Positions 1 to 41,277 of a stretch of DNA of 41,277 nucleotides are shown in pieces. Every line of letters starts with the position of its first letter. The stretch's first letter is position 1. Below the pieces are notes generated by a model that worked only from the letters and a program-made list of their open reading frames with translations, made no database searches and had not been told where the DNA came from. Source of the DNA: a virus. A program made the translations under genes and the position numbers. The stretch spans positions 1 to 41,277 of the IMG/VR virus record IMGVR_UViG_3300033571_023157; one strand, 5' to 3'.

Positions 1-180
1 AAGGGAACCGACGACTGTTGGATTGAAACCCTCAGGAATAGAAGTAAGACGCCCCAAATAAAGGGAACCGACGACTGTTGGATTGAATCCCTCAGGAATC
101 GAAGTAAGACCTCTCAAATCAAGGTCACCGCCGACTGTTGGATTGAAACCCTCAGGAATAGAAGTAAGACCTCTCAAATA
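1..180 (-). repeat. 60-bp in-frame tandem repeats within the LRR gene
   Basis: Three consecutive 60-bp units differ at only a few positions. The length is a multiple of three and the frame stays open, so this is a protein repeat expanding at the DNA level. A partial fourth unit (VGGSL) precedes them. Copy-number change by slippage or recombination would add or remove whole 20-residue repeats without breaking the frame. Confidence 0.85.
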
Positions 181-267
181 AAGGCTACCGCCGACTGGCT
201 CAATTCCAAAAAATTGGTTAGTTGTTAAATTGTGTTTTTTGCGAAATTCTAATTGTTCTTTGTTCAT
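1..267 (-). CDS. Leucine-rich-repeat protein, N-terminal part (runs off the window)
   Basis: The reading frame starts at the ATG whose first base is 267 and is still open at base 1, so at least 89 residues are present and the C-terminus is missing. After a short head (MNKEQLEFRKKHNL...) comes a tandem 20-residue repeat of the form L-x-x-L-T-S-I-P-E-G-F-N-P-T-V-x-G-x-L, encoded by near-identical 60-bp units at 1-60, 61-120 and 121-180. The spacing of Leu and Ile fits a short leucine-rich repeat. Such repeats usually form binding surfaces, but the target here is unknown. A well-formed minus-strand promoter lies 40-70 bp upstream (308-338), so the gene probably has its own transcript. Identity as an LRR protein is fairly sure; a role in host or surface binding is inference. 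Confidence 0.7.
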   Translation of the reverse strand, partial: MNKEQLEFRKKHNLTTNQFFGIEPVGGSLYLRGLTSIPEGFNPTVGGDLDLRGLTSIPEGFNPTVVGSLYLGRLTSIPEGFNPTVVGSL

Positions 268-19404: not shown

Positions 19405-19653
19405 TTACCCAATCTGTTTATTCTCACTAACTACCGACTGAAACAAAGCTGAATTTGTACCAACTGCACCTGTTGCTTTAAGAAAGTCAATTTCGACCTT
19501 TGCGGACTTAATTATAACATTTGCAAGGTTTGCTATTGCTTTTGCTTTTTGCACCTCTTCATCAACGTTTTTGTCTTTGCAATCTTCATCATTCAATCTT
19601 TCAAGTGCTAAGAAAATGTGATCTCTAACGTCTTCCATCTTATTTTTTGCCAT
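19405..19653 (-). CDS. Small helical phage protein, unknown
   Basis: 82 residues, almost entirely helical (MEDVRDHIFLALERLNDED, then KAKAIANLANVIIKSAKVEIDFLKATG). I associate this pattern with small phage proteins encoded close to HNH endonucleases and packaging genes, but no function is known to me. Its start overlaps the HNH gene end by 14 bp, so they are translated together. It is the last gene before the terminator at 19334-19366. Coiled-coil self-assembly is likely. Confidence 0.65.
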   Translation of the reverse strand: MAKNKMEDVRDHIFLALERLNDEDCKDKNVDEEVQKAKAIANLANVIIKSAKVEIDFLKATGAVGTNSALFQSVVSENKQIG

Positions 19654-20275
19654 AACTATTTATTTTTTGTATTAATTTATTTTTCAATTTGATTACTTCC
19701 AAAAGTTCTTTTGGAATATTTCTGTGTGAATTTTTACGCATTAAGTCGGCATAACTTACCATTTGTAAGTTGTTTATTTGACAATTCAAAGAGTTACCAT
19801 CAATGAAAGTAATTTTCATATTTTCCGTAATCTCTCCATTGTAAAGTTGCCAAATTACGCGGTGTAAAGGTTGCCAATTTCCGTCCGAAATTTTAATGAA
19901 GTAGTAAGGAATATCCGCTTTATCTCTTCGTAAATTTATGCGTCCAATTTCTTTGGTATTGTGAGGTTTATTTCCTTTCTTAAACATTGTCTTTGAAACT
20001 TTACTGTAAGTTTCAGGATCCATTTTCTTTCCTTTATTAAATGGAACATTACCTTTTTGAAATTTGGTATTTCCTCCAATATTTGTTCCTGGTCTTAATC
20101 TTCCAGAGAAAGGAGAGTTTTTATATTCCTCAGATTTCTTTAAGCCTAATGCGTTTGATTTATGGTAAACAGATGTAATTGGAATCCCTAATTCCTTTGC
20201 AAGTAAATGAGTAGGAGTATTTGCGTATTTTTCTACCAATGTGTTTAGCATCGATTCTGTAAATTTAATTTTCAT
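19640..20275 (-). CDS. HNH endonuclease
   Basis: About 211 residues from the ATG at 20275 (MKIKFTESML); the ATG at 20293 is also in frame and would overlap the upstream gene by 14 bp. The N-terminal 45 residues form a helix-turn-helix-like unit (HLLAKELGIPITSVYHKSNALGL). The middle is rich in Lys and Gly (NKGKKMD, KKGNKPHN). The nuclease core is WQPLHRVIWQLYNGEI (His about 138), then ITFIDGNSLNCQINNLQMVS with the N residues of the HNH motif. Such genes are either free-standing homing endonucleases or packaging helpers. No terminase is adjacent, so homing is the more likely reading. Confidence 0.8.
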   Translation of the reverse strand: MKIKFTESMLNTLVEKYANTPTHLLAKELGIPITSVYHKSNALGLKKSEEYKNSPFSGRLRPGTNIGGNTKFQKGNVPFNKGKKMDPETYSKVSKTMFKKGNKPHNTKEIGRINLRRDKADIPYYFIKISDGNWQPLHRVIWQLYNGEITENMKITFIDGNSLNCQINNLQMVSYADLMRKNSHRNIPKELLEVIKLKNKLIQKINSYGKK

Positions 20276-20279
20276 AGGT

Positions 20280-20564
20280 TTATAGTTTCTCATTCCCACC
20301 AATCAAATCATTGTAAGCCTTTTCAATCTCAGGAACTTCATCAACCAAACGGCAAAAATATTTAATTACATTTTCTTGGTGAACGATTGTTTTTTTAGCA
20401 CGTTCAAATTCTTTGGTGATTATCACGTTTTCGTTGTGCAATCTAGTATAATAATCACTACTATACTTAATCGTTTCATTCTGCTGTTTGATTCGATAAT
20501 TTTGAATTGCTATCCAAATTGCCATTCCGACAATTACGAATAATGATGCGATGTTGATTTCCAT
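20280..20564 (-). CDS. Membrane-anchored coiled-coil protein
   Basis: 94 residues. A hydrophobic segment at about 5-22 (ASLFVIVGMAIWIAIQ) is followed by a charged helix that extends to the end (RIKQQNETIKYSSDYYTRLHNEN...). The topology would be one membrane anchor with a long cytoplasmic or periplasmic helix. No family is recognised. It is followed after 4 bp by the HNH gene start. The leader before its ATG shares the string CGTAAACAAT with the leader of the gene at 20837-21094. Confidence 0.55.
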   Translation of the reverse strand: MEINIASLFVIVGMAIWIAIQNYRIKQQNETIKYSSDYYTRLHNENVIITKEFERAKKTIVHQENVIKYFCRLVDEVPEIEKAYNDLIGGNEKL

Positions 20565-20666: not shown

Positions 20667-20685
20667 ACTAATCACATTGTGATTG

Positions 20686-20755
20686 TGGAGAGACCAGGAG
20701 TCGAACCTAACTCTTTCGGATTTCACCCGAACGCATACCGCTATGCTATCACTCC
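20686..20755 (-). tRNA. tRNA-Phe (anticodon GAA)
   Basis: The minus strand folds as a cloverleaf of 70 nt. The acceptor GGAGTGA pairs with TCTCTCC, with one U-U mismatch. The D-arm is GCAT-AGCGGT-ATGC. The anticodon arm is TTCGG-GTGAAAT-CCGAA with GAA at positions 34-36. The T-arm is TTAGG-TTCGACT-CCTGG, and A is the discriminator. CCA is not encoded. It is slightly short (four-base variable loop, six-base D loop), as seen in phage tRNAs. The organism may decode UUU/UUC-rich phage genes with it. Confidence 0.8.
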
Positions 20756-26108: not shown

Positions 26109-26564
26109 ATGAAAACTAAACTAATCATTACCTTAATATGGTTAACCCTAATCGGTTTAATAACTTTAATCGCTTTAACTGGTTGTTCAGCTAACTACCA
26201 TTTTGGTAAATTTTTAAAGAAAGGCGGTACTATTGACACAACCGAACGAATTATAAACGTTGAAAAAACTATAAAAATAAACGGCAAGGATTCAATTATA
26301 TTCGTTGAGATGCCTTTAAATTGTCCAAAAGTACAAATACCTTTGACAAGGCAAGAAATACGCTATAAGTACAGAATACAGCGTGATAGCATTGAAACAA
26401 TTAAATACGTTACGAAGTGGAAAACGAAACTTGTTAAGATTGAAAAGAAAGCGGAAGTTAAGAACAAGAAAACTGAAAATTCCGATTGGTGGAAATTTTG
26501 GTTAGGTTGTGCCGTTGCATTTGGAATTAGTTTATTAATCAAATTATTTATATTTAAGAGATGA
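26109..26564 (+). CDS. Candidate unimolecular spanin (u-spanin)
   Basis: 151 residues. The N-terminus is a lipoprotein signal (basic head, long hydrophobic core, then LTGC with the lipidation Cys at about 26). The C-terminus is a transmembrane helix (WLGCAVAFGISLLIKLFIF, about 129-147) with a basic end. About 100 polar residues lie between, enough to span the periplasm. A lipobox plus a C-terminal membrane anchor in one protein is the definition of a unimolecular spanin, which fuses inner and outer membranes at lysis. Endolysin and small membrane peptides are nearby. A host-like lipoprotein is the alternative. Confidence 0.65.
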   Translation: MKTKLIITLIWLTLIGLITLIALTGCSANYHFGKFLKKGGTIDTTERIINVEKTIKINGKDSIIFVEMPLNCPKVQIPLTRQEIRYKYRIQRDSIETIKYVTKWKTKLVKIEKKAEVKNKKTENSDWWKFWLGCAVAFGISLLIKLFIFKR

Positions 26565-27169
26565 AAGTAATAGTACCATTTTCGGGAGGTAAAGATAGTC
26601 AAGCTACATTAATTTACGCTTGTGAAAAATATGGAGTAAAAAATGTTACCGCTGTTTTTTGTGACACCAAATGGGAACACGAAATAACATACACCCACAT
26701 TGATTATGTTATTAAAAAATTGAACGTTACATTTTTAAATTTAGTTTCAAAAAAATATGATGGAATGGTTGATTTAGCAATTAAGAAAAAAAGATTTCCA
26801 GCAACTAAATCTAAATTTTGCACAACTGAACTAAAAGTAATTCCAATGATTGATTTTATTTTAAGTCAAAAAGAGCATTTATTGATTTTGCAAGGAATTA
26901 GAGCAGACGAAAGTTTGTCAAGGTCAAAAATGAAAAATCAATGCAGGTTTTTTAAATACTATTTTGAACCTTACCAAACAAATACAATGATTGTTGATGA
27001 ATTGTCAAATAAAGAAAAACTTTCATTGGTATTACAAAAAAAACTTAACAAAGCAAAAGAAAGACTATCTATAGGAAAAGAAGATAAAAAATTTCACACT
27101 TATAGAAAGAAACAAATTTTTGAATGGTGTAAAAATTACACAGATGACATTGATAGACCTTTTTTTTAA
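26561..27169 (+). pseudogene. PAPS-reductase-like protein, N-terminal fragment
   Basis: 202 residues starting at an ATGA overlap with the spanin-like gene. The start FSGGKDSQATL is the PP-loop of PAPS reductase/ATP-sulfurylase-like enzymes, followed by KSKFCTTELKV and GIRADESLSRS, both typical of this family. The frame stops in a T8 run at 27160-27167. Its continuation is in frame +1 (next entry). Removing one T would give a single protein of about 327 residues. Phage members of this family are common; roles include sulfur chemistry and nucleic-acid modification. Which applies here is unknown. Confidence 0.75.
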
Positions 27170-27545
27170 CTCAACAGCAGATGAAGTTTTAAGTTATTCT
27201 TTAAGTAAAGATTTTGACATAAACCCACTTTATTTTAAAGGTTTTTCGAGAGTTGGTTGTTTTCCTTGTATAATGTGCAATCAAAATGAAATTGATTTAA
27301 TAATTAAAAATCACCCCGAAACAATTGAAAAAATACAAAAAGCAGAAATAGAATCAAATTCTACTTTTTTCCCTCCAGATAAAGTTCCTTCTAGGTATAA
27401 ATCAATGATTAATGAAAACGGTAAGCAATACCCGACATTGGATGATGTTGTAAAATACAGAAAAGACAAAAATGCAACATTAGATTTATTTGAATTTGAT
27501 GAAGAAGTTAATAGGTGTAAATCTGTTTATTCTATTTGCGAATGA
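27168..27545 (+). pseudogene. PAPS-reductase-like protein, C-terminal fragment
   Basis: From AAC at 27168 (NSTADEVLSYSLSKDF...) the +1 frame continues the family pattern with GFSRVGCFPCIMCNQ, a cysteine cluster expected in the C-terminal part of phage PAPS-reductase-like proteins, and ends [10 protein letters not shown]. An ATG in this frame exists at 27120 but lies inside the overlap and adds residues unlike the family. The split is best read as one gene with a frameshift, either real (phase-variable or dead) or a homopolymer sequencing error. Confidence 0.7.
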
Positions 27546-31417: not shown

Positions 31418-31642
31418 ATGAATAACGGAACGTGGAACCCTCAACCTAAAAAAGAAAAACCATACACAATTAGACTTAGTCGTTTGTGTAATGGCAAAAC
31501 TGCTCCTGTTGGTTTTCAATTTGTAATCGTAAATACTAAGCGTGGTTATTCCTCTCAACTAATCAAAGGAACGATTACTGACGAACAGAAAGAACAACTT
31601 GGAGAAATTCTGTACAATCAAATTATTAAGGGAATTAAATAA
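31418..31642 (+). CDS. Unknown small basic protein, 74 residues
   Basis: MNNGTWNPQPKKEKPYTIR..., then beta strands (GFQFVIVNTKRGYSS) and a C-terminal helix (DEQKEQLGEILYNQIIKGI). It lies between the HTH gene and ssb with short gaps on both sides. No family is recognised. A DNA-binding or SSB-partner role is possible from context only. Confidence 0.55.
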   Translation: MNNGTWNPQPKKEKPYTIRLSRLCNGKTAPVGFQFVIVNTKRGYSSQLIKGTITDEQKEQLGEILYNQIIKGIK

Positions 31643-31652
31643 ATCAAATCAA

Positions 31653-32126
31653 ATGTTCAAAACAATCCTAACAGGTAACATCGGTAATGATGCCGAAGTT
31701 ACATCATTCGACAATGGAAGTAAAGTTGTCACATTTTCAGTTGCTCATTCTAAGAAATGGACTGATAAAACAGGAGTTAAGCAAGAAAAAACAACGTGGA
31801 TTCGTTGTAATATGTGGAAACAAGAAAACCTTGCTCAGTACCTTAAAAAAGGCGTTAGAGTAATGGTTGAAGGTGAAATTGAATCACGTGCATACACTAA
31901 CAAAGAAGGGCAAACAGTTACTTCATTGGAGTTGAATGTTTTTGCTATTGAAATGCAATCATTTGCTGAAAAATCTCAGGAGGTTGTGAATACTCAAGGA
32001 GGTGCGAATACTCAGGGTGCTGTAAGTACACCACCTCAGAATTTAAGTACACCACCTCAAGCAGTTAGTACACCACCCGTAAGTAATAAACCTGCCAACG
32101 AAGAGGAAAGCGATTTACCGTTTTAA
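31653..32126 (+). CDS. ssb: Single-stranded DNA-binding protein
   Basis: 157 residues from the ATG at 31653 (MFKTILTGNIGNDAEV); an in-frame ATG at 31599 lies inside the previous gene. The OB fold is clear: KVVTFSVAHSKKW, EKTTWIRCNMWKQENLAQYLKKGVRVMVEGEIE. The linker contains four STPP units in tandem (STPPQNLSTPPQAVSTPP...). The C-terminal tip DLPF is the acidic partner-binding tail of bacterial SSB. It covers single strands in replication and recombination. Confidence 0.95.
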   Translation: MFKTILTGNIGNDAEVTSFDNGSKVVTFSVAHSKKWTDKTGVKQEKTTWIRCNMWKQENLAQYLKKGVRVMVEGEIESRAYTNKEGQTVTSLELNVFAIEMQSFAEKSQEVVNTQGGANTQGAVSTPPQNLSTPPQAVSTPPVSNKPANEEESDLPF

Positions 32127-32146
32127 TAATTTTAAATTAAACTAAG

Positions 32147-32509
32147 ATGCAAGCAACAGAATTAAGAATTGGGAATTTGTTAAATTACACCACAGCAGAG
32201 GGTGATGTTTTAACGAATGTTATTGATTGGCAGGATTTAAAATGGTTAAGCGAAGACGAAAAAGGATTTAATTTAGTTCATTCATTTATTCCCTTAACTG
32301 AAGAATGGTTATTAAATCTTAGATTTATTTCATTTAAAAAAGGGCATTTGTATTATGAAAACAACGGATTTTCTATTTTATATGCTTATGGTAAATGGAA
32401 TTATAGTCCAAGTCAATCTATTACTATTGGTAGAGAAATCAAATACGTTCACGAATTACAGAATTGGTATTTTTTATTGACAGGCGAGGAATTAACTCTT
32501 TCAAAATAA
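32147..32509 (+). CDS. Unknown phage protein, 120 residues
   Basis: Starts MQATELRIGNLLNY... and continues with WxxLKWLSEDEK and LTEEWLLNLRF. The opening R-I-G-N-L-x-x-Y-x-x-x-E-G-D and the block ITIGREIKYVHELQNWYFLLTGEEL are a pattern I associate with proteins widespread in Bacteroidota phages and prophages, without known function. It lies in the replication operon, and the helicase follows directly. Confidence 0.65.
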   Translation: MQATELRIGNLLNYTTAEGDVLTNVIDWQDLKWLSEDEKGFNLVHSFIPLTEEWLLNLRFISFKKGHLYYENNGFSILYAYGKWNYSPSQSITIGREIKYVHELQNWYFLLTGEELTLSK

Positions 32510-32511
32510 CC

Positions 32512-33921
32512 ATGCTAAGACCCTACCAACTTAAAGCCGTTGACGAAGTTAAAACCTCATTGCGTGACGGAAAAAAAGCACCTATTTTAGTAATGCCAAC
32601 AGGCGCAGGAAAAACGGTTGTTTTTTGTCACATCGCAGAAAATGCAGTAATGAAAGGTAAGCGAGTTTGGATTTTAGTACATCGAGTTGAACTACTGAGA
32701 CAAACTTCTAAAAAACTGCATGAAAACGGTGTAAATCATGGATTAATAAATCCAAAATACACACCAAATTTACAACTGCCTGTTCAAGTGGCATCGGTTC
32801 AAACTTTGGTTAATAGATTGGAACGATATGAAAAACCTGACTTAATAATCATTGACGAAGCACACCACGCCACAGCAGGTTCCTGGAATAAAATTATTAG
32901 TGCATGTCCAAACGCATTAATAATTGGAGTAACAGCAACTCCAACACGTGCAGATGGAACAGGATTGAATCAAATTTTTGATGACATTATTATTGGTCCA
33001 CAAATCTATGAATTGATAGAAATGGGATTTTTAGTAAAACCTATTGTTTACCGTCCTCCACAAAAAAATAAAATCGATCTTTCAGAATTAAAAATGAAAG
33101 GCTCAGATTACGACAAAGAACAAATGGCTGAAATTATTGATAAACCATCCATTACAGGTGACGTTATTTCGCATTACAGACAATATGCGCATGGAATGGC
33201 AGCAGTTGTTTTTTGTGTTTCTGTTGCACATGCTGAACATGTTGCTGCTGAATTTCGTTCTGCAGGTTATAAGGCATATTCTGTTGATGGCTCAATGGAG
33301 GATGATTTAAGAACTCGTTTACTTGGAGGTTTGGAAGATGGAACCGTTGAAATTATTACTTCATGTGATTTGATTTCGGAAGGGACAGATATTCCTGCAA
33401 TTGGTTGTGGAATTATGCTAAGACCTACACAATCACTTAGTTTATTTATCCAACAAGCAGGACGTATTTTGAGACTTTCACAAGGAAAAAACAAAGCGAT
33501 TTTATTAGACCACGTAGGAAATACAGTTTTGCATGGTTTACCTCAACAACATCGTGAATGGACTTTGGAAGGACAAAAACGAAACAAAAAATCTAAGAAT
33601 CAAGAACCTGCAATTAGAGTAATTCAATGTCCTGCATGTTATGCAATGTATTTTCCAAATCCTGAACATAAATGCGAAGTTTGCGGAACATTAGAGGAAA
33701 TTTCTTCACGTGAATTATTACACGTTGACGGTCAATTGGAAGAAGTGACTGAGGAACAAAAACTCCAGATAAAAATAGACAAACAACGTGAAGTTTCAAA
33801 GGCAAGAACATTGGAGGAACTTTTAAGAATAGAAAAAGACCGAGGTTACAAGCGTGGATGGGCAACACGAATGTTTAAGCTAAGAGAGGACAGAATGATA
33901 AATAATTCTGTTAAATTTTAA
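32512..33921 (+). CDS. SF2 DEAD/DEAH-type helicase with C-terminal zinc finger
   Basis: 469 residues from the ATG at 32512 (MLRPYQLKAVDEV). An in-frame upstream ATG lies inside the previous gene. Motif I MPTGAGKT at about 28-35, motif II DEAH at about 115-118, motif III TATPTR, then the second domain with VVFCVSVAHAEHVA, TSCDLISEGTDIP and motif VI QQAGRILR. A Cys4 finger (CPAC-x11-CEVC) begins at about 373. It should unwind or remodel DNA in replication or repair. A 21-codon acidic frame continues past the stop. Confidence 0.9.
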   Translation: MLRPYQLKAVDEVKTSLRDGKKAPILVMPTGAGKTVVFCHIAENAVMKGKRVWILVHRVELLRQTSKKLHENGVNHGLINPKYTPNLQLPVQVASVQTLVNRLERYEKPDLIIIDEAHHATAGSWNKIISACPNALIIGVTATPTRADGTGLNQIFDDIIIGPQIYELIEMGFLVKPIVYRPPQKNKIDLSELKMKGSDYDKEQMAEIIDKPSITGDVISHYRQYAHGMAAVVFCVSVAHAEHVAAEFRSAGYKAYSVDGSMEDDLRTRLLGGLEDGTVEIITSCDLISEGTDIPAIGCGIMLRPTQSLSLFIQQAGRILRLSQGKNKAILLDHVGNTVLHGLPQQHREWTLEGQKRNKKSKNQEPAIRVIQCPACYAMYFPNPEHKCEVCGTLEEISSRELLHVDGQLEEVTEEQKLQIKIDKQREVSKARTLEELLRIEKDRGYKRGWATRMFKLREDRMINNSVKF

Positions 33922-34029
33922 ACCCCAACGATTTTTGAGACTGAAATAATTCAGGAATTAGAGATTGTTGATGACGAGTTGGAGTAAAAAAAACGTTTCG
34001 AATAAAAAACCACTAAACCCAAAACTAAG

Positions 34030-34479
34030 ATGCAAAAAGAATCAAACATATTAAAATTACTATCCGTGAAACTTTCACAATTGAGAGTTTCGATTTTTAG
34101 AAATAACGTAGGTACAGGATGGGTTGGTGAAACTTTCAAAATTGCAAAACCAACGACTTTAATTTTGAATGGTAAACCTGTTCAAGTTACAACAGGTGAT
34201 TTAATTATTAAAAATCCACGTCCATTAAGAGCAGGACTTCACGAAGGTTCAAGTGATTTAATTGGATGGAAAACGGTTGAAATTACACCAGAAATGATTG
34301 GTAAAAAAGTAGCAATTTTTGTTTCAATTGAGGGTAAAACAGATTTTGGAAGGATTTCAAGCAATCAAGCTATTTGGCTACAAAACGTAAAAAATGCAGG
34401 TGGTATTGGTTACGTTTGCCGAAACATAGAAGACGTTGAAAAAATCATTAATGATTACGACCAACAACTGAAAGCATGA
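34030..34479 (+). CDS. VRR-NUC-type nuclease
   Basis: 149 residues. RNNVGTGW near the start, GSSDLIGW (D of the active site), then VAIFVSIEGKTDFGRISSNQ with the E-x-K pair and QxxWLxxVKNAGGIGYV match the stand-alone VRR-NUC PD-(D/E)XK nucleases of phages, which cut branched DNA structures. Length fits the family. The stop overlaps the primase-helicase start by ATGA (34476-34479). Confidence 0.8.
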   Translation: MQKESNILKLLSVKLSQLRVSIFRNNVGTGWVGETFKIAKPTTLILNGKPVQVTTGDLIIKNPRPLRAGLHEGSSDLIGWKTVEITPEMIGKKVAIFVSIEGKTDFGRISSNQAIWLQNVKNAGGIGYVCRNIEDVEKIINDYDQQLKA

Positions 34480-37175
34480 GTGATATTAAACAACTGAAAG
34501 CAGACACCAATATTGTTGATGTCGTTTCAAAATACGTCTCACTTGCAAAGAAAGGTTCTGAATACGTTGGTAATTGTCCATTTCACGAAGATAAAACAGC
34601 ATCTTTTAAAGTCAACGAAAAAAAACAGATATTCAAATGTTTTGGTTGTGGTGAAGGTGGTGACGTTTTTAATTTTTTGACTGCTCAAGGGAAATCATTA
34701 GGTGAAGCAATTCAAGAGATTGAAGACCCTTTAAATATTAATGCACGTCAGTATGGAAACGGAATCGGAAACACCAACAAAAACGAATCCTTAAAAAAAT
34801 CTGAAACAACAGTTTGGAATACTATTTTTCCATTTCCAGAACTGAAAGAAATCCAACATTACGAATACGGAACACCTCATAAAATTTGGACATACGTTGA
34901 CGAAAATGGAAATGACATTTTGCATGTTTGTAGATTTAATTTTCCAGATGGATCAAAACAAACACTTCCATTAGTTTGGGCTTCGAATGGTAAATTTAAC
35001 GGATGGCGTTGGATGAAAACTAAAGGATTCAACACGCTGTATAATTTGGACTTATTGAAACAATATCCGCGAACAAACGTAGTTTTAGTAGAAGGGGAAA
35101 AAACAGCACAATATCTTCAGGATTTAGTTACACCATCAAAATTATTGTTTACAACCTGGTCAGGTGGTGCGAATGGTATTCACAATGTCGATTTCTCACC
35201 ATTAACTGAAAGAAATATTATCGTTTGGCCAGATAATGACAAATCACAAAAATATGGTGACAAACATAAATTAGCAGGTCAAATAAAACCATGGCACGAA
35301 CAACCAGGGAATGAAGCAATGCTGAAAGTTGCATCGTTGATTCAAACGAATTGGAAGCGTTGGTTAAATGTTCCTTCGCAATATCCTCACAAATGGGATG
35401 GTGCAGATGAAGATTGGATTGATGAAGATGCGGTGATCAAATTTGTCCGAGATAATATGGTTGAAATTCCAATTATCACAAACGAAATTGAAACTGCTGT
35501 AATCGAATCCAAAGAAAAGAAATTCGTTTACGATTCAACCAAAATTTTTGAAAACGATTATTTTCGATTTCTTGGATATGACAAAGACGAAACAGGAAAA
35601 CTGAATTATTATTTCTTCGCATTTGATGCTAAATCTGTTATTCGATTGTCTCCATCTTCAATGACAAAATCAAATCTTATGATGTTGGCTCCAATTAATT
35701 GGTGGGAACAGAAATATCCTGGAAGTAAAACGAATATCAACATTGATGCTGCACAACAGTTTTTAATTGGTTATTCGCATACAGTAGGAATTTATTCTGC
35801 TAAATCAATTCGTGGCCGTGGTGCATGGTTTGATTCTGGAAAGGTTGTAATTCACACCGGCGAACATTTGATTGTAGATAATGAAACTGTTCCATTGATG
35901 AATTTTAGATCAAAATACGTTTACGAAGTTTCTGAAAAAATAGATTTTGCACAAACACAGCCGTTGGATAGTAATACAGGAAAACAGATTCTTTCAATGA
36001 TTAAGAAATTCAAATGGGAACGTGAAGTGAATGCTTATTTACTTGCAGGATGGTGTGTGATTAGTCCATTTTGCGGTTTACTTACTTGGAGACCTCATGC
36101 GTGGGTAAATGGTCCATCTGGTTCAGGTAAATCATGGATAATGGAAAACATCGTTAAAAAATTAATTGGAGACATCGGAGTAGTGATGCAAGGACGTTCA
36201 ACTGAGGCATACATACGTGGTAAATTAAAAAATGATGCATTACCTGTAATTTTTGACGAAAGTGACGTTGATGCGAGTTATTCAGATAAGGAACGAATGC
36301 AGAACAATTTATCACTTGTAAGGGCATCTTCCTATGGAAAAGGTGGCGTAATTGGTAAAGGAACTCAAACAGGAGGTTACAAGGAATACACTATAAATTC
36401 TTGTTTTATGTTTTTCTCGATCGGAGTGCAATTAAATCAAAGAGCAGACTATTCACGTTTCTCAATGCTTGGATTAAAGGCATTTGAAGGCTATCAAACA
36501 GATTCTGAATTTGCAACATTTATTGATAAATGGAATTCTATTGTTTCAGATGACGTGGTTAAGCAATTGCAAACACGAACAATGAGATTACTTCCAAAAA
36601 TTATTAAGAACTCAAAAACGTTTTCAGATGCCGTTTCTGCTGAAATTGGTAATCGTAGAATAGGTGATCAAGTTGGAGGAATGTTAGCGGGTGCATATTC
36701 TCTAGGAAATGAAGATGAAATTTCAATGGAAAAAGCTATTGAATTTATCAAAAAATTATCTTGGGAGGAAGAAAAAGGATTGGAACAAACCAAAGATGAA
36801 ATCCAATTGCTAAGTAAAATAATGTCGCACATAACGACTGTTGAAGGTCAATACTCGAAACATGATAGAACGATTGGTGAATTAGTTTCGTTGGTTATTG
36901 GAACTGACATTGAAAGTGATATTTCTGTTGACCATGCAGACAAGAAATTACGCAGAATCGGAATAAGAATCAAAGGTGACGAAATTTTAATTTCCAATAG
37001 TTCAAATGAGATTTTCAAAATTATCAAAGAAACTTCATGGTCAGAGAATTATAACAAAATCCTTGAAAGAATTGATGGTGCAAAGAAAATTGATTCAACT
37101 ACATTTACTCCTGGACTTCGTTCACGTGCAGTTTCTATTCCTGCTGAATTTATTATGAAGGGGATGAATTCGTAG
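34476..37175 (+). CDS. Primase-helicase
   Basis: 899 residues with three parts. First, a CHC2 zinc finger (Cys34, His37, Cys55, Cys58 in GNCPFHEDKTASF and FKCFGCGEGGDVFNFL). Second, a Toprim-like region (VLVEGEKTAQY at about 201-211 and IVWPDND at about 249-254). Third, a P-loop helicase (Walker A GPSGSGKS at about 546-553, FDESDVDA near 593). This is the arrangement of phage primase-helicases that unwind and prime the fork. It is the centre of the replication operon, after SSB, helicase and nuclease genes. The initial GSEYVG-type start and ATGA coupling fix the N-terminus. Confidence 0.9.
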   Translation: MSDIKQLKADTNIVDVVSKYVSLAKKGSEYVGNCPFHEDKTASFKVNEKKQIFKCFGCGEGGDVFNFLTAQGKSLGEAIQEIEDPLNINARQYGNGIGNTNKNESLKKSETTVWNTIFPFPELKEIQHYEYGTPHKIWTYVDENGNDILHVCRFNFPDGSKQTLPLVWASNGKFNGWRWMKTKGFNTLYNLDLLKQYPRTNVVLVEGEKTAQYLQDLVTPSKLLFTTWSGGANGIHNVDFSPLTERNIIVWPDNDKSQKYGDKHKLAGQIKPWHEQPGNEAMLKVASLIQTNWKRWLNVPSQYPHKWDGADEDWIDEDAVIKFVRDNMVEIPIITNEIETAVIESKEKKFVYDSTKIFENDYFRFLGYDKDETGKLNYYFFAFDAKSVIRLSPSSMTKSNLMMLAPINWWEQKYPGSKTNINIDAAQQFLIGYSHTVGIYSAKSIRGRGAWFDSGKVVIHTGEHLIVDNETVPLMNFRSKYVYEVSEKIDFAQTQPLDSNTGKQILSMIKKFKWEREVNAYLLAGWCVISPFCGLLTWRPHAWVNGPSGSGKSWIMENIVKKLIGDIGVVMQGRSTEAYIRGKLKNDALPVIFDESDVDASYSDKERMQNNLSLVRASSYGKGGVIGKGTQTGGYKEYTINSCFMFFSIGVQLNQRADYSRFSMLGLKAFEGYQTDSEFATFIDKWNSIVSDDVVKQLQTRTMRLLPKIIKNSKTFSDAVSAEIGNRRIGDQVGGMLAGAYSLGNEDEISMEKAIEFIKKLSWEEEKGLEQTKDEIQLLSKIMSHITTVEGQYSKHDRTIGELVSLVIGTDIESDISVDHADKKLRRIGIRIKGDEILISNSSNEIFKIIKETSWSENYNKILERIDGAKKIDSTTFTPGLRSRAVSIPAEFIMKGMNS

Positions 37176-39512: not shown

Positions 39513-40133
39513 TTAATCTTCAAATTCGTTATGGTCTTCGGTAAACTCCATTTCTGAAATATCCGATTCTAGTATTTCAGAATCGTTTTCTAATTCCTCA
39601 ACGTGTTCAAACGTTTCTGTTGCAACCTCAACAACCTCAATTCTTTTCGATTTCTCAAACTGTTTTAACTTATCTTTGATTCCTTCAAATGGAAGTGGTG
39701 ACATTATATTGAAATCAACGATTTTATATTGTAAGTCTTTCATTCTGTTGTAAATACTCATCTCAATCAAATCGTACATTTTTTCGGTCAATACAGGTAG
39801 ATTCATAGCTTTATCCATGTCACGGAAAACTAATGTATCTTTTACTACAAAAACGTCATTGTTCTTTCTATTGTAAGCACTCACGTAAACACGTAATGTA
39901 ACGGTGTCAATGTTTTCAAACGTGACCTTTTCAAGTTCTGCAACTGAAAGTCTTTCAAACACCATACTTCTAACTGAGTCGGTTTTGTAGCGTTTGGATG
40001 TACGCGTTAATTCTGCTAAGTTATTACCTATCGACTTGTAAGTAAATTTTGACTTTGTTTCATCTGAAAGCGGTGCATAGTCGGACTGACTAATAATCGT
40101 TTTCTCTCCAATCTTCATTTTTTCTAAATACAT
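39513..40133 (-). CDS. Unknown minus-strand protein
   Basis: About 206 residues from the ATG at 40133 (MYLEKMKIGEKTIISQSD). An in-frame GTG at 40160 overlaps the -7 box and is rejected; the ATG at 40118 is another option. The first 100 residues are mixed alpha/beta (GNNLAELTRTSKRYKTDSVRS, TVTLRVYVSAYN). The C-terminal 60 residues are strongly acidic (EHVEELENDSEILESD). It stands alone beside the repeat-rich noncoding region, the position of a replication initiator or regulator, but no such domain is visible. Confidence 0.55.
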   Translation of the reverse strand: MYLEKMKIGEKTIISQSDYAPLSDETKSKFTYKSIGNNLAELTRTSKRYKTDSVRSMVFERLSVAELEKVTFENIDTVTLRVYVSAYNRKNNDVFVVKDTLVFRDMDKAMNLPVLTEKMYDLIEMSIYNRMKDLQYKIVDFNIMSPLPFEGIKDKLKQFEKSKRIEVVEVATETFEHVEELENDSEILESDISEMEFTEDHNEFED

Positions 40134-40159: not shown

Positions 40160-40167
40160 CAAATATA
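40160..40167 (-). promoter_or_regulatory. Candidate -7 box of the minus-strand gene
   Basis: The minus strand reads TATATTTG with a predicted start near 40153, 20 bases before the ATG at 40133. The surrounding AT-rich sequence makes chance matches likely. Confidence 0.35.
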
Positions 40168-40480
40168 TAATTTAAAATTTAATTTATTATTTTTAAATCA
40201 ATAAAAATTATTCAAAATTAATTTTAAACGTTTTAAAATAATATATTTTTAACTAATAGCGTTTTGAAATAATACAAATTAATAAATTTTTAAATATATT
40301 TTTCTAATTATTTTATCTGTTTTGATGCAATAATAATTTAATAATGTTTAAAATAATTTCAATTAAATTATATTTTTAAAATAACATATTGATATTTTCA
40401 TTTTTAAATATTTTTATCGTATTTAATTACGTATTATATTTAATTAATATAATTTAAACCTATTAAAATAATAATCAAAA
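40168..40480. other. Extremely AT-rich noncoding segment
   Basis: No gene. Almost every base is A or T, with many TTTAAAAT and AATTTAAT strings. It lies next to the GCAACAAA repeats and could be a DNA-unwinding element. Confidence 0.6.
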
Positions 40481-40484
40481 TTCA

Positions 40485-40830
40485 TTTGCAACAAAATTCT
40501 GTTGCAAAACAACAAAAATAAATACGCTTTGATGCACGTTAAACCCTTACACAATAAGACTTTCAATAAATTTGCAACAAAACAACGTAAATTTCAAGGT
40601 AGATATATATATAGACATATAAATATATACAACAAAATAAAAACTCCTATATATCTATATATGTATATATAGTAAATATGTTGTTGTTTTGTTGCAAATC
40701 TTTCGGAAATCCAATAGCAGTAAAGGATTCAGTAAGCAACAAAAATTTTTTAGACCGTTGCTAAATTGAAAATTCTGTTGCAAATATTTTTAAATGTTTG
40801 TTTATCAATGCGTTAACGTGCAACAAAATT
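40485..40830. other. Candidate replication origin with GCAACAAA repeats
   Basis: No gene. The core GCAACAAA or its complement TTTGTTGC (with near matches) recurs: TTTGCAACAAAA at 40485, GTTGCAAAAC at 40501, TTTGCAACAAAACAAC at 40571, its inverted copy at 40683-40698, GCAACAAAAA near 40735, CTGTTGCAAA near 40775, GCAACAAAATT at 40820. AAAATTCTGTTGCAAA occurs twice (40493 and 40769). The inverted 16-mer pair encloses about 96 bases dominated by TATATA. Iterons beside an AT-rich segment and replication genes fit an origin; integrase arm sites are an alternative. Confidence 0.45.
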
Positions 40831-41277
40831 AACAACACAACGAATGCCACGTAATTAACCACGATTTACAGCATACCAGAATACCAAATCAACCAGACTT
40901 ACAAATCACAGAGCATCATTACCCTACAATTCACAGCACCAAACACTCATGTAATTCACACTAACCACTTAAACATACCAGATAATCATTTAAAACGTAA
41001 TTATTCAAGAACTAAACGCATACTCACGATATACGAAAAACATATTGAATTTTAATTCTGACGCATTATAACTATGTAAGTAATACAATCTATTAACTTA
41101 ATACATTTAAAGTTCTTAAATCAAATAAAAACAATATGTATTTAATTTAACTAATCTTATTTAATAGTTTGTGTGTTATTTTTTGTTACTAATAACATGT
41201 TATTTTGACAGCGTTAACGTCTCGTAACTTAAAGGTACTCCGACAGTTAGGTTCAGAATAGTCAAAATATGCGAAGC
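40831..41277. other. Noncoding, C-rich strand then AT-rich end
   Basis: No gene recognised on either strand. 40861-40990 is poor in G on the plus strand (CATACCAGA occurs twice, AATTCACA twice). A perfect 14-bp palindrome AATAACATGTTATT lies at 41191-41204, and CGTTAACG recurs at 40811 and 41212. The last 60 bases are richer in GC, possibly the edge of another feature. Confidence 0.5.

Follow-up and report, generated by a model that had tools for sequence, protein, structure and literature searches.

A candidate iteron-based replication origin near the cos end of a Bacteroidota-type tailed phage, with the phage primase-helicase as proposed initiator

The linear virus record IMGVR_UViG_3300033571_023157 from the IMG/VR database (41,277 bp, the whole of which is hereafter called the window) corresponds to a Bacteroidota-type tailed phage, and carries near its right end a repeat-rich and AT-rich segment (40160-40830) that is probably the phage replication origin, with iterons bound by the phage's own primase-helicase (34476-37175). 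The initial annotation of this DNA had described the segment as a candidate phage origin, and sequence comparison lends this proposal good support, through a layout conserved among relatives, a family-wide link between iteron arrays and primase-helicase genes, and the recovery of the known replication sites of phage P4 as a control.

Repeats and base composition of the candidate origin

The iteron GCAACAAA is present in five exact copies, four on the plus strand (40488, 40574, 40736 and 40820) and one on the minus strand (40688), and in two minus-strand copies with one mismatch (40500 and 40776). The shorter form CAACAAAA occurs 7 times in 333 bp, constituting the sole cluster of at least five copies of its kind in the window, and 500 dinucleotide shuffles of 40480-40840 yielded a mean of 0.1 exact iterons and a maximum of 2. 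The 16-mer inverted repeat whose arms flank the TATA-rich core (Table 1) is exact and reaches 17 when extended, while the longest inverted repeat in shuffles of the iteron segment was 15. The direct 16-mer at 40493 and 40769 is likewise exact and was reached in none of 300 shuffles of the iteron segment; however, it arises in 1.7% of shuffles once the low-complexity AT-rich part is included, and is therefore weaker evidence on its own. The AT-rich flank spans 320 bp, and the GC-poorest 300 bp of the contig (40159-40458) hold 26 G/C, the next lowest stretch elsewhere having 57. The initial annotation had listed at least seven iteron copies in both orientations, the perfect inverted 16-mer, the direct 16-mer and about 300 bases of nearly pure A+T, placed beside the replication operon; all of these were recovered, the iterons being far above shuffled expectation and conserved, and the replication cassette adjoins the region.

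No structured RNA was found in the region by Rfam above threshold, and its strong single-strand folding (z -5.5), considered as a sign of such an RNA, is accounted for by the inverted repeats. A direct DNA search of named phages gave no match.

Conservation in close relatives

As the initial annotation had suggested, the iteron was searched for in relatives, and three of them carry the GCAACAAA array. In one of these, the close relative IMGVR_UViG_3300032219_002477 (G001), the primase-helicase is 97% identical to that of the window and the 350-bp array is nearly unchanged, whereas the AT-rich flank has been rebuilt; the neighboring protein encoded at 39513-40133 is 69% identical beside this near-unchanged array. 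The other two, G002 and G011, are end-to-end genomes in which the sequence has diverged and the same layout and core blocks are kept: a minus-strand gene for a protein with an acidic tail, AT-rich DNA, a palindromic iteron pair, TTGCAACAAAACAAC, a TATA-rich core, more iterons, a spacer and cos. The AT-rich flank of the relatives preserves its composition (14-18% GC), not its sequence. Two further relatives show a related layout with altered iterons, of the ACTACAAA type in L014 and of the GGTTACAAA type in G013. G013 also has a separate dense cluster of TGTACAT, TGTGCAT and GTATAC upstream of cos (L056 6001-6160), which differs from the GCAACAAA array.

The cumulative GC skew of the window peaks near 39.5 kb. 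Across the array-to-cos spacer (right ends of L067 and L068 in the relatives) the sign of the skew is opposite among relatives, the window and G001 being C-rich (-0.36), and G002 (+0.35) and G011 (+0.43) G-rich; third-codon skew displays no clean switch.

Iteron arrays are linked to primase-helicase genes across the family

We surveyed 89 loci with relatives of the primase-helicase (77 IMG/VR loci and 12 named phages, in 53 groups), leaving out the window's own close relatives and counting arrays of mixed orientation that fall outside the primase gene. Of 37 such arrays, 30 lay within 700 bp of the primase-helicase gene, where a fraction of 0.167 was expected (P 1.4e-17). As loci of the same group are not independent, this P value is too small, and the counts of groups and motifs are safer: the gene-linked arrays span 14 groups and 15 motifs, nearly all of them 119-166 bp past the stop codon, on the 3' side. 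Shuffled 500-bp regions produced no array in 1,800 trials, and the same scan picked up P4 ori and crr, both known replication sites. In the relatives, inverted iteron clusters flank a TATA- or pyrimidine-rich core, as at 40571-40698 of the window, and some iterons are themselves alike: CGTAACAA in L141 compares with TGCAACAA in the window, and GTTACAAA in L119 also resembles the window's iteron. Isolates with an array beside this gene infect Bdellovibrio, Acinetobacter and Synechococcus. Among them, the Bdellovibrio phage phi1422 (JQ177062) encodes a primase-helicase relative followed, right after the gene, by 7 mixed-orientation copies of GGTAACAC, thus differing from the window, where the array stands apart from the gene. 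The accessible part of the phi1422 report describes a circularly permuted genome, another difference from the window, and makes no mention of an origin (PMC3391216); arrays of this kind are therefore independent of cos. At L092 (5429-5575), 7 copies of AATGCAAT lie about 0.5 kb past the primase-helicase gene, arranged differently from those at the other loci.

The primase-helicase as proposed initiator

The protein displays an N-terminal CHC2 zinc finger, a TOPRIM-like VEGEKTA...PDND motif, and conserved Walker motifs (GPSGSGKS and FDESD). Pfam gave only CHC2 and weak DUF6371/AAA matches, with neither DUF927 nor D5/Primase_Cterm, and the structural matches of its model were limited to the zinc/polymerase part of DnaG and a weak match to Twinkle. 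At about residues 775-850 there is a C-terminal winged-helix-like domain, modeled by AlphaFold with a fair pLDDT (predicted local distance difference test) of about 80, with the pattern TIGELV, a recognition-helix-like ADKKLRRIGI and then a wing; this domain differs among loci with different iterons. SaPI (Staphylococcus aureus pathogenicity island) Rep and Cch2 use a C-terminal domain to bind iterons that lie downstream of their genes (PMC7581432), and a winged helix attaches P4 alpha to its own repeats (PMC4234260); the primase-helicase is therefore proposed as the initiator. By this analogy and the predicted fold, it probably binds the iterons through its C-terminal winged-helix-like domain. 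Recognizing the 8-bp GCAACAAA-type repeats, it would be loaded by the two oppositely oriented clusters that flank the TATA-rich core, where melting could take place with the AT-rich flank assisting the opening; it would then unwind and prime, and a host polymerase would extend. The initial annotation had recognized no known initiator and considered that the system may be new; this view is not supported, since arrays of this kind repeatedly follow genes of the primase-helicase family, and published origins of phage-inducible chromosomal islands (PICI) share the layout, which is also close to that of P4 crr and ori.

Several observations weigh against this interpretation. The model of the whole protein is poor (pLDDT 48), and the covariation between iterons and recognition helix is confounded by relatedness. 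The window array lies 3.3 kb from the stop codon of the primase-helicase gene, compared to 0.1-0.2 kb in distant relatives, and the protein encoded at 39513-40133 is also conserved beside it. Furthermore, no array was found in the partial contig G020, whose primase is 48% identical, nor, by the survey criterion, in the named phages of about 90 kb Dolphis, PHB04, ST4 and fHe-Yen8-01.

Comparison with PICI and P4 replicons

The layout seen in the window is that of published PICI origins, which lie 3' of the initiator gene (PMC6092414). In PICI and SaPI, inverted iteron clusters surround an AT-rich core (PMC6092414, PMC7581432), an arrangement also found in the window, and the iterons vary between elements. 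Conversely, their origin immediately follows the initiator gene, as it does in many of the distant relatives and not in the window; their initiator helicases carry DUF927 or D5/Primase_Cterm domains, neither of which Pfam detected in the window protein; and the primases of SaPIbov1 and SaPI5 belong to the AEP family, while that of the window has a DnaG-type CHC2 zinc finger at its N-terminus. Moreover, these elements are integrating satellites, whereas the window is a tailed phage with its own capsid and tail genes and, in relatives, terminase genes, and has no tyrosine integrase.

P4 ori and crr share with the window their 8-bp iterons in mixed orientation, although the type 1 iteron of P4, GGTGAACA, differs from GCAACAAA, and P4 has two separate sites. 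P4 crr sits just 3' of the alpha gene, whose single protein product acts as primase and helicase and attaches to the origin with a winged helix (PMC4234260). An hhalign alignment of alpha with the window protein covers 32 columns, the Walker A motif only, with no homology detectable beyond it. By analogy, we propose that the window system works like a PICI/P4 replicon without formally belonging to either.

A broader possibility, which we put forward tentatively and consider somewhat doubtful, is that many ordinary tailed phages use a replicon of the PICI/P4 type in which the primase-helicase recognizes its own 8-bp iterons, specificity shifts with the C-terminal domain, and the origin was moved beside cos in the lineage of the window. 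If this were true, an origin beside cos might couple replication to packaging. For a family of phage primase-helicases that is widespread and seen in many environmental loci, the findings supply a candidate initiator by name and a candidate origin open to testing, along with many pairs of iterons and C-terminal domains for decoding recognition, and they map where cos lies at the right end in this group of phages. They also suggest that an origin layout thought special to phage satellites occurs in ordinary phages, which bears on the source of satellite replicons. Earlier accounts of such phage origins may exist, the literature covered here being open-licence papers.

Alternative explanations

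Among other readings of the array, the one closest to ours keeps it as an origin and assigns iteron binding to the product of 39513-40133, an unrecognized initiator that would recruit the primase-helicase. This gene is the nearest to the array and occupies the same place in all four genomes with a GCAACAAA array, and its product combines a folded N-terminal part with an acidic tail. Yet it has no homologue in G013, which keeps iteron-like repeats upstream of cos; its product is only 23-25% identical between the window and G002 or G011, though their iterons agree; in distant relatives the arrays adjoin the primase gene itself; and the product showed no family match and, by AlphaFold and Foldseek, no fold match, including to a DNA-binding protein. 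We thus regard this assignment as rather unlikely. Packaging offers a different explanation, with the array serving, close to the genome's right end, as a cosB-like site to which terminase would bind. The contig ends at cos with the array about 450 bp away, as is also the case in G001, G002, G011 and L014, and in L016 the stretch from cos to terS contains TGTAGT repeats. However, an array of this kind is missing to the right of cos in the Flavobacterium columnare phage FCL-2 and in L016, both of them cos phages whose GpA terminases are related; this makes a packaging function less likely, and relatives' arrays adjoin the primase gene even in the circularly permuted phi1422. The cosB sites of phage lambda are found on the opposite side of cosN. 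On balance, a role in packaging seems improbable.

Regulation or plasmid-like maintenance, with the repeats as operators or a partition site, has in its favor that the palindrome at 40485-40508 resembles a repressor site and that an TATATTTG box, which we take as the Bacteroidota -7 consensus TAnnTTTG, stands upstream of the open reading frame at 39513 (40167-40160, minus strand). Over 300 bp separate this box from the closest iteron, no rightward open reading frame starts between the array and the contig end, a link with the primase-helicase gene would be unexpected for operators, and no ParA/ParB-like gene appeared among the proteins searched; we judge this role quite improbable. Short inverted and direct repeats around an AT-rich core would also suit the attP arm sites of an integrase, and the P4 attP arms likewise form a repeat cluster. 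The initial annotation had named integrase arm sites among the findings that would refute an origin. Nevertheless, a search for tyrosine integrases (PF00589) was negative for the window and for five relatives, of which two are end-to-end genomes, with all 14 controls positive (serine integrases were not searched), which makes attP unlikely; in addition, a search of genome contigs revealed no prophage with this primase, only matches to the DnaG zinc finger. Arm sites are accordingly the most far-fetched of these readings.

Right end of the genome

By sequence comparison, the right contig end of the window is a cos site. G001 stops at the equivalent of the window's exact last base (41277), with only the final 17 bp identical, and G002 and G011 each begin and finish with the same 13 nt, ATAAATGCGAAGC. 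L014 reads through the junction (737-795), with AGGTACTCC...ATATGCGAAGC before it and CCCATTTTT after it, followed by a TerS-like gene and a GpA-type terminase (PF05876, E 1.6e-48); the terminase gene falls outside the window itself, and further terminase contigs begin at the matching position. The terminal 15-mer gave 36 matches, most of them unrelated, and cos sites only in L014 and L016, apart from G001 itself. An assembly break at the contig end was discarded, since the window and G001, though identical only over these last 17 bp, stop at one and the same base, and the corresponding position is where several terminase contigs begin. Fixed ends with a short cohesive sequence, as in a lambda-type cos terminus, are thus seen in the repeat of G002 and G011 and in the common end of the window and G001. 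The 13-nt terminal repeat fits filled-in 5' cohesive ends, the overhang polarity being presumed.

At the left, both the window and G001 break off inside a minus-strand gene with 60-bp tandem repeats (window 1-197; L007 1-353), and therefore, by analogy with L014, a few kb at the left, terminase included, are probably absent from the window. Related GpA-type terminases (38%) are found in FCL-2 and in Cellulophaga phage phiSM. FCL-2 resembles the window in having a GGTACT motif near its right end and differs in lacking an iteron array there.

Table 1. Coordinates of the candidate origin, the right terminus and the replication genes in the window.
Position	Strand	Feature	Remarks
31599-34479	+	Replication cassette apart from the primase-helicase	
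31599-32126	+	SSB (single-stranded DNA-binding protein)	
32147-32509	+	Unknown protein in the replication cassette	
32464-33921	+	ResIII/DEAD helicase	
34030-34479	+	VRR-NUC nuclease	
34476-37175	+	Primase-helicase, 899 amino acids, proposed initiator	CHC2 zinc finger, TOPRIM-like part, P-loop/Walker B, C-terminal winged-helix-like domain
39513-40133	-	206-amino-acid protein with acidic tail, possible accessory or alternative origin binder	Kept here in G001, G002 and G011 only
40160-40830		Candidate origin segment	Repeat-rich and AT-rich DNA near the right contig end
40160-40479		AT-rich flank, candidate unwinding or accessory region	9.1% GC
40485-40508		Palindromic iteron pair TTTGCAACAAAATTCTGTTGCAAA	24-mer
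40571-40586	+	Left arm of inverted repeat, TTTGCAACAAAACAAC	
40587-40682		TATA-rich core between the inverted arms, candidate melting site	16.7% GC
40683-40698	-	Right arm of inverted repeat	
40736-40743	+	Iteron GCAACAAA	
40769-40784	-	Direct 16-mer AAAATTCTGTTGCAAA, second copy	One-mismatch iteron inside
40820-40827	+	Iteron GCAACAAA	
40831-41233		Non-coding spacer, array to cos	
41234-41241	+	GGTACTCC motif	About 30 bp left of the cos overhang; also at relatives' cos (one mismatch in G011)
41265-41277	+	AAATATGCGAAGC, proposed 13-nt cos overhang	Right end of the packaged DNA

Gene content of the window

The window encodes a lambda-family portal and a major capsid protein E, as well as RecT and exonuclease VIII on the minus strand. 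The plus-strand replication cassette comprises SSB, the ResIII helicase, the VRR-NUC nuclease and the 899-amino-acid primase-helicase, a set similar to the helicase, SSB, VRR-Nuc and primase genes of phage Dolphis and Aeromonas phage ST4. Other genes were observed along the contig. An asparagine-synthase-like amidotransferase gene (327-1721), with a homologue in the same relative place in L014, represents a metabolic gene carried by this phage group. A PAPS-reductase-like gene (26561-27545) looks split over two frames, whereas G011 has an intact 300-amino-acid gene that looks like a relative; the split in the window is a possible frameshift or sequencing error. An HNH endonuclease gene (window 19640-20302; L068 5016-5630) adjoins the capsid gene, and a similar gene near the right end of G011 suggests mobility. 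Finally, a tRNA-Phe (gaa) is located among the head genes on the minus strand (20685-20755).
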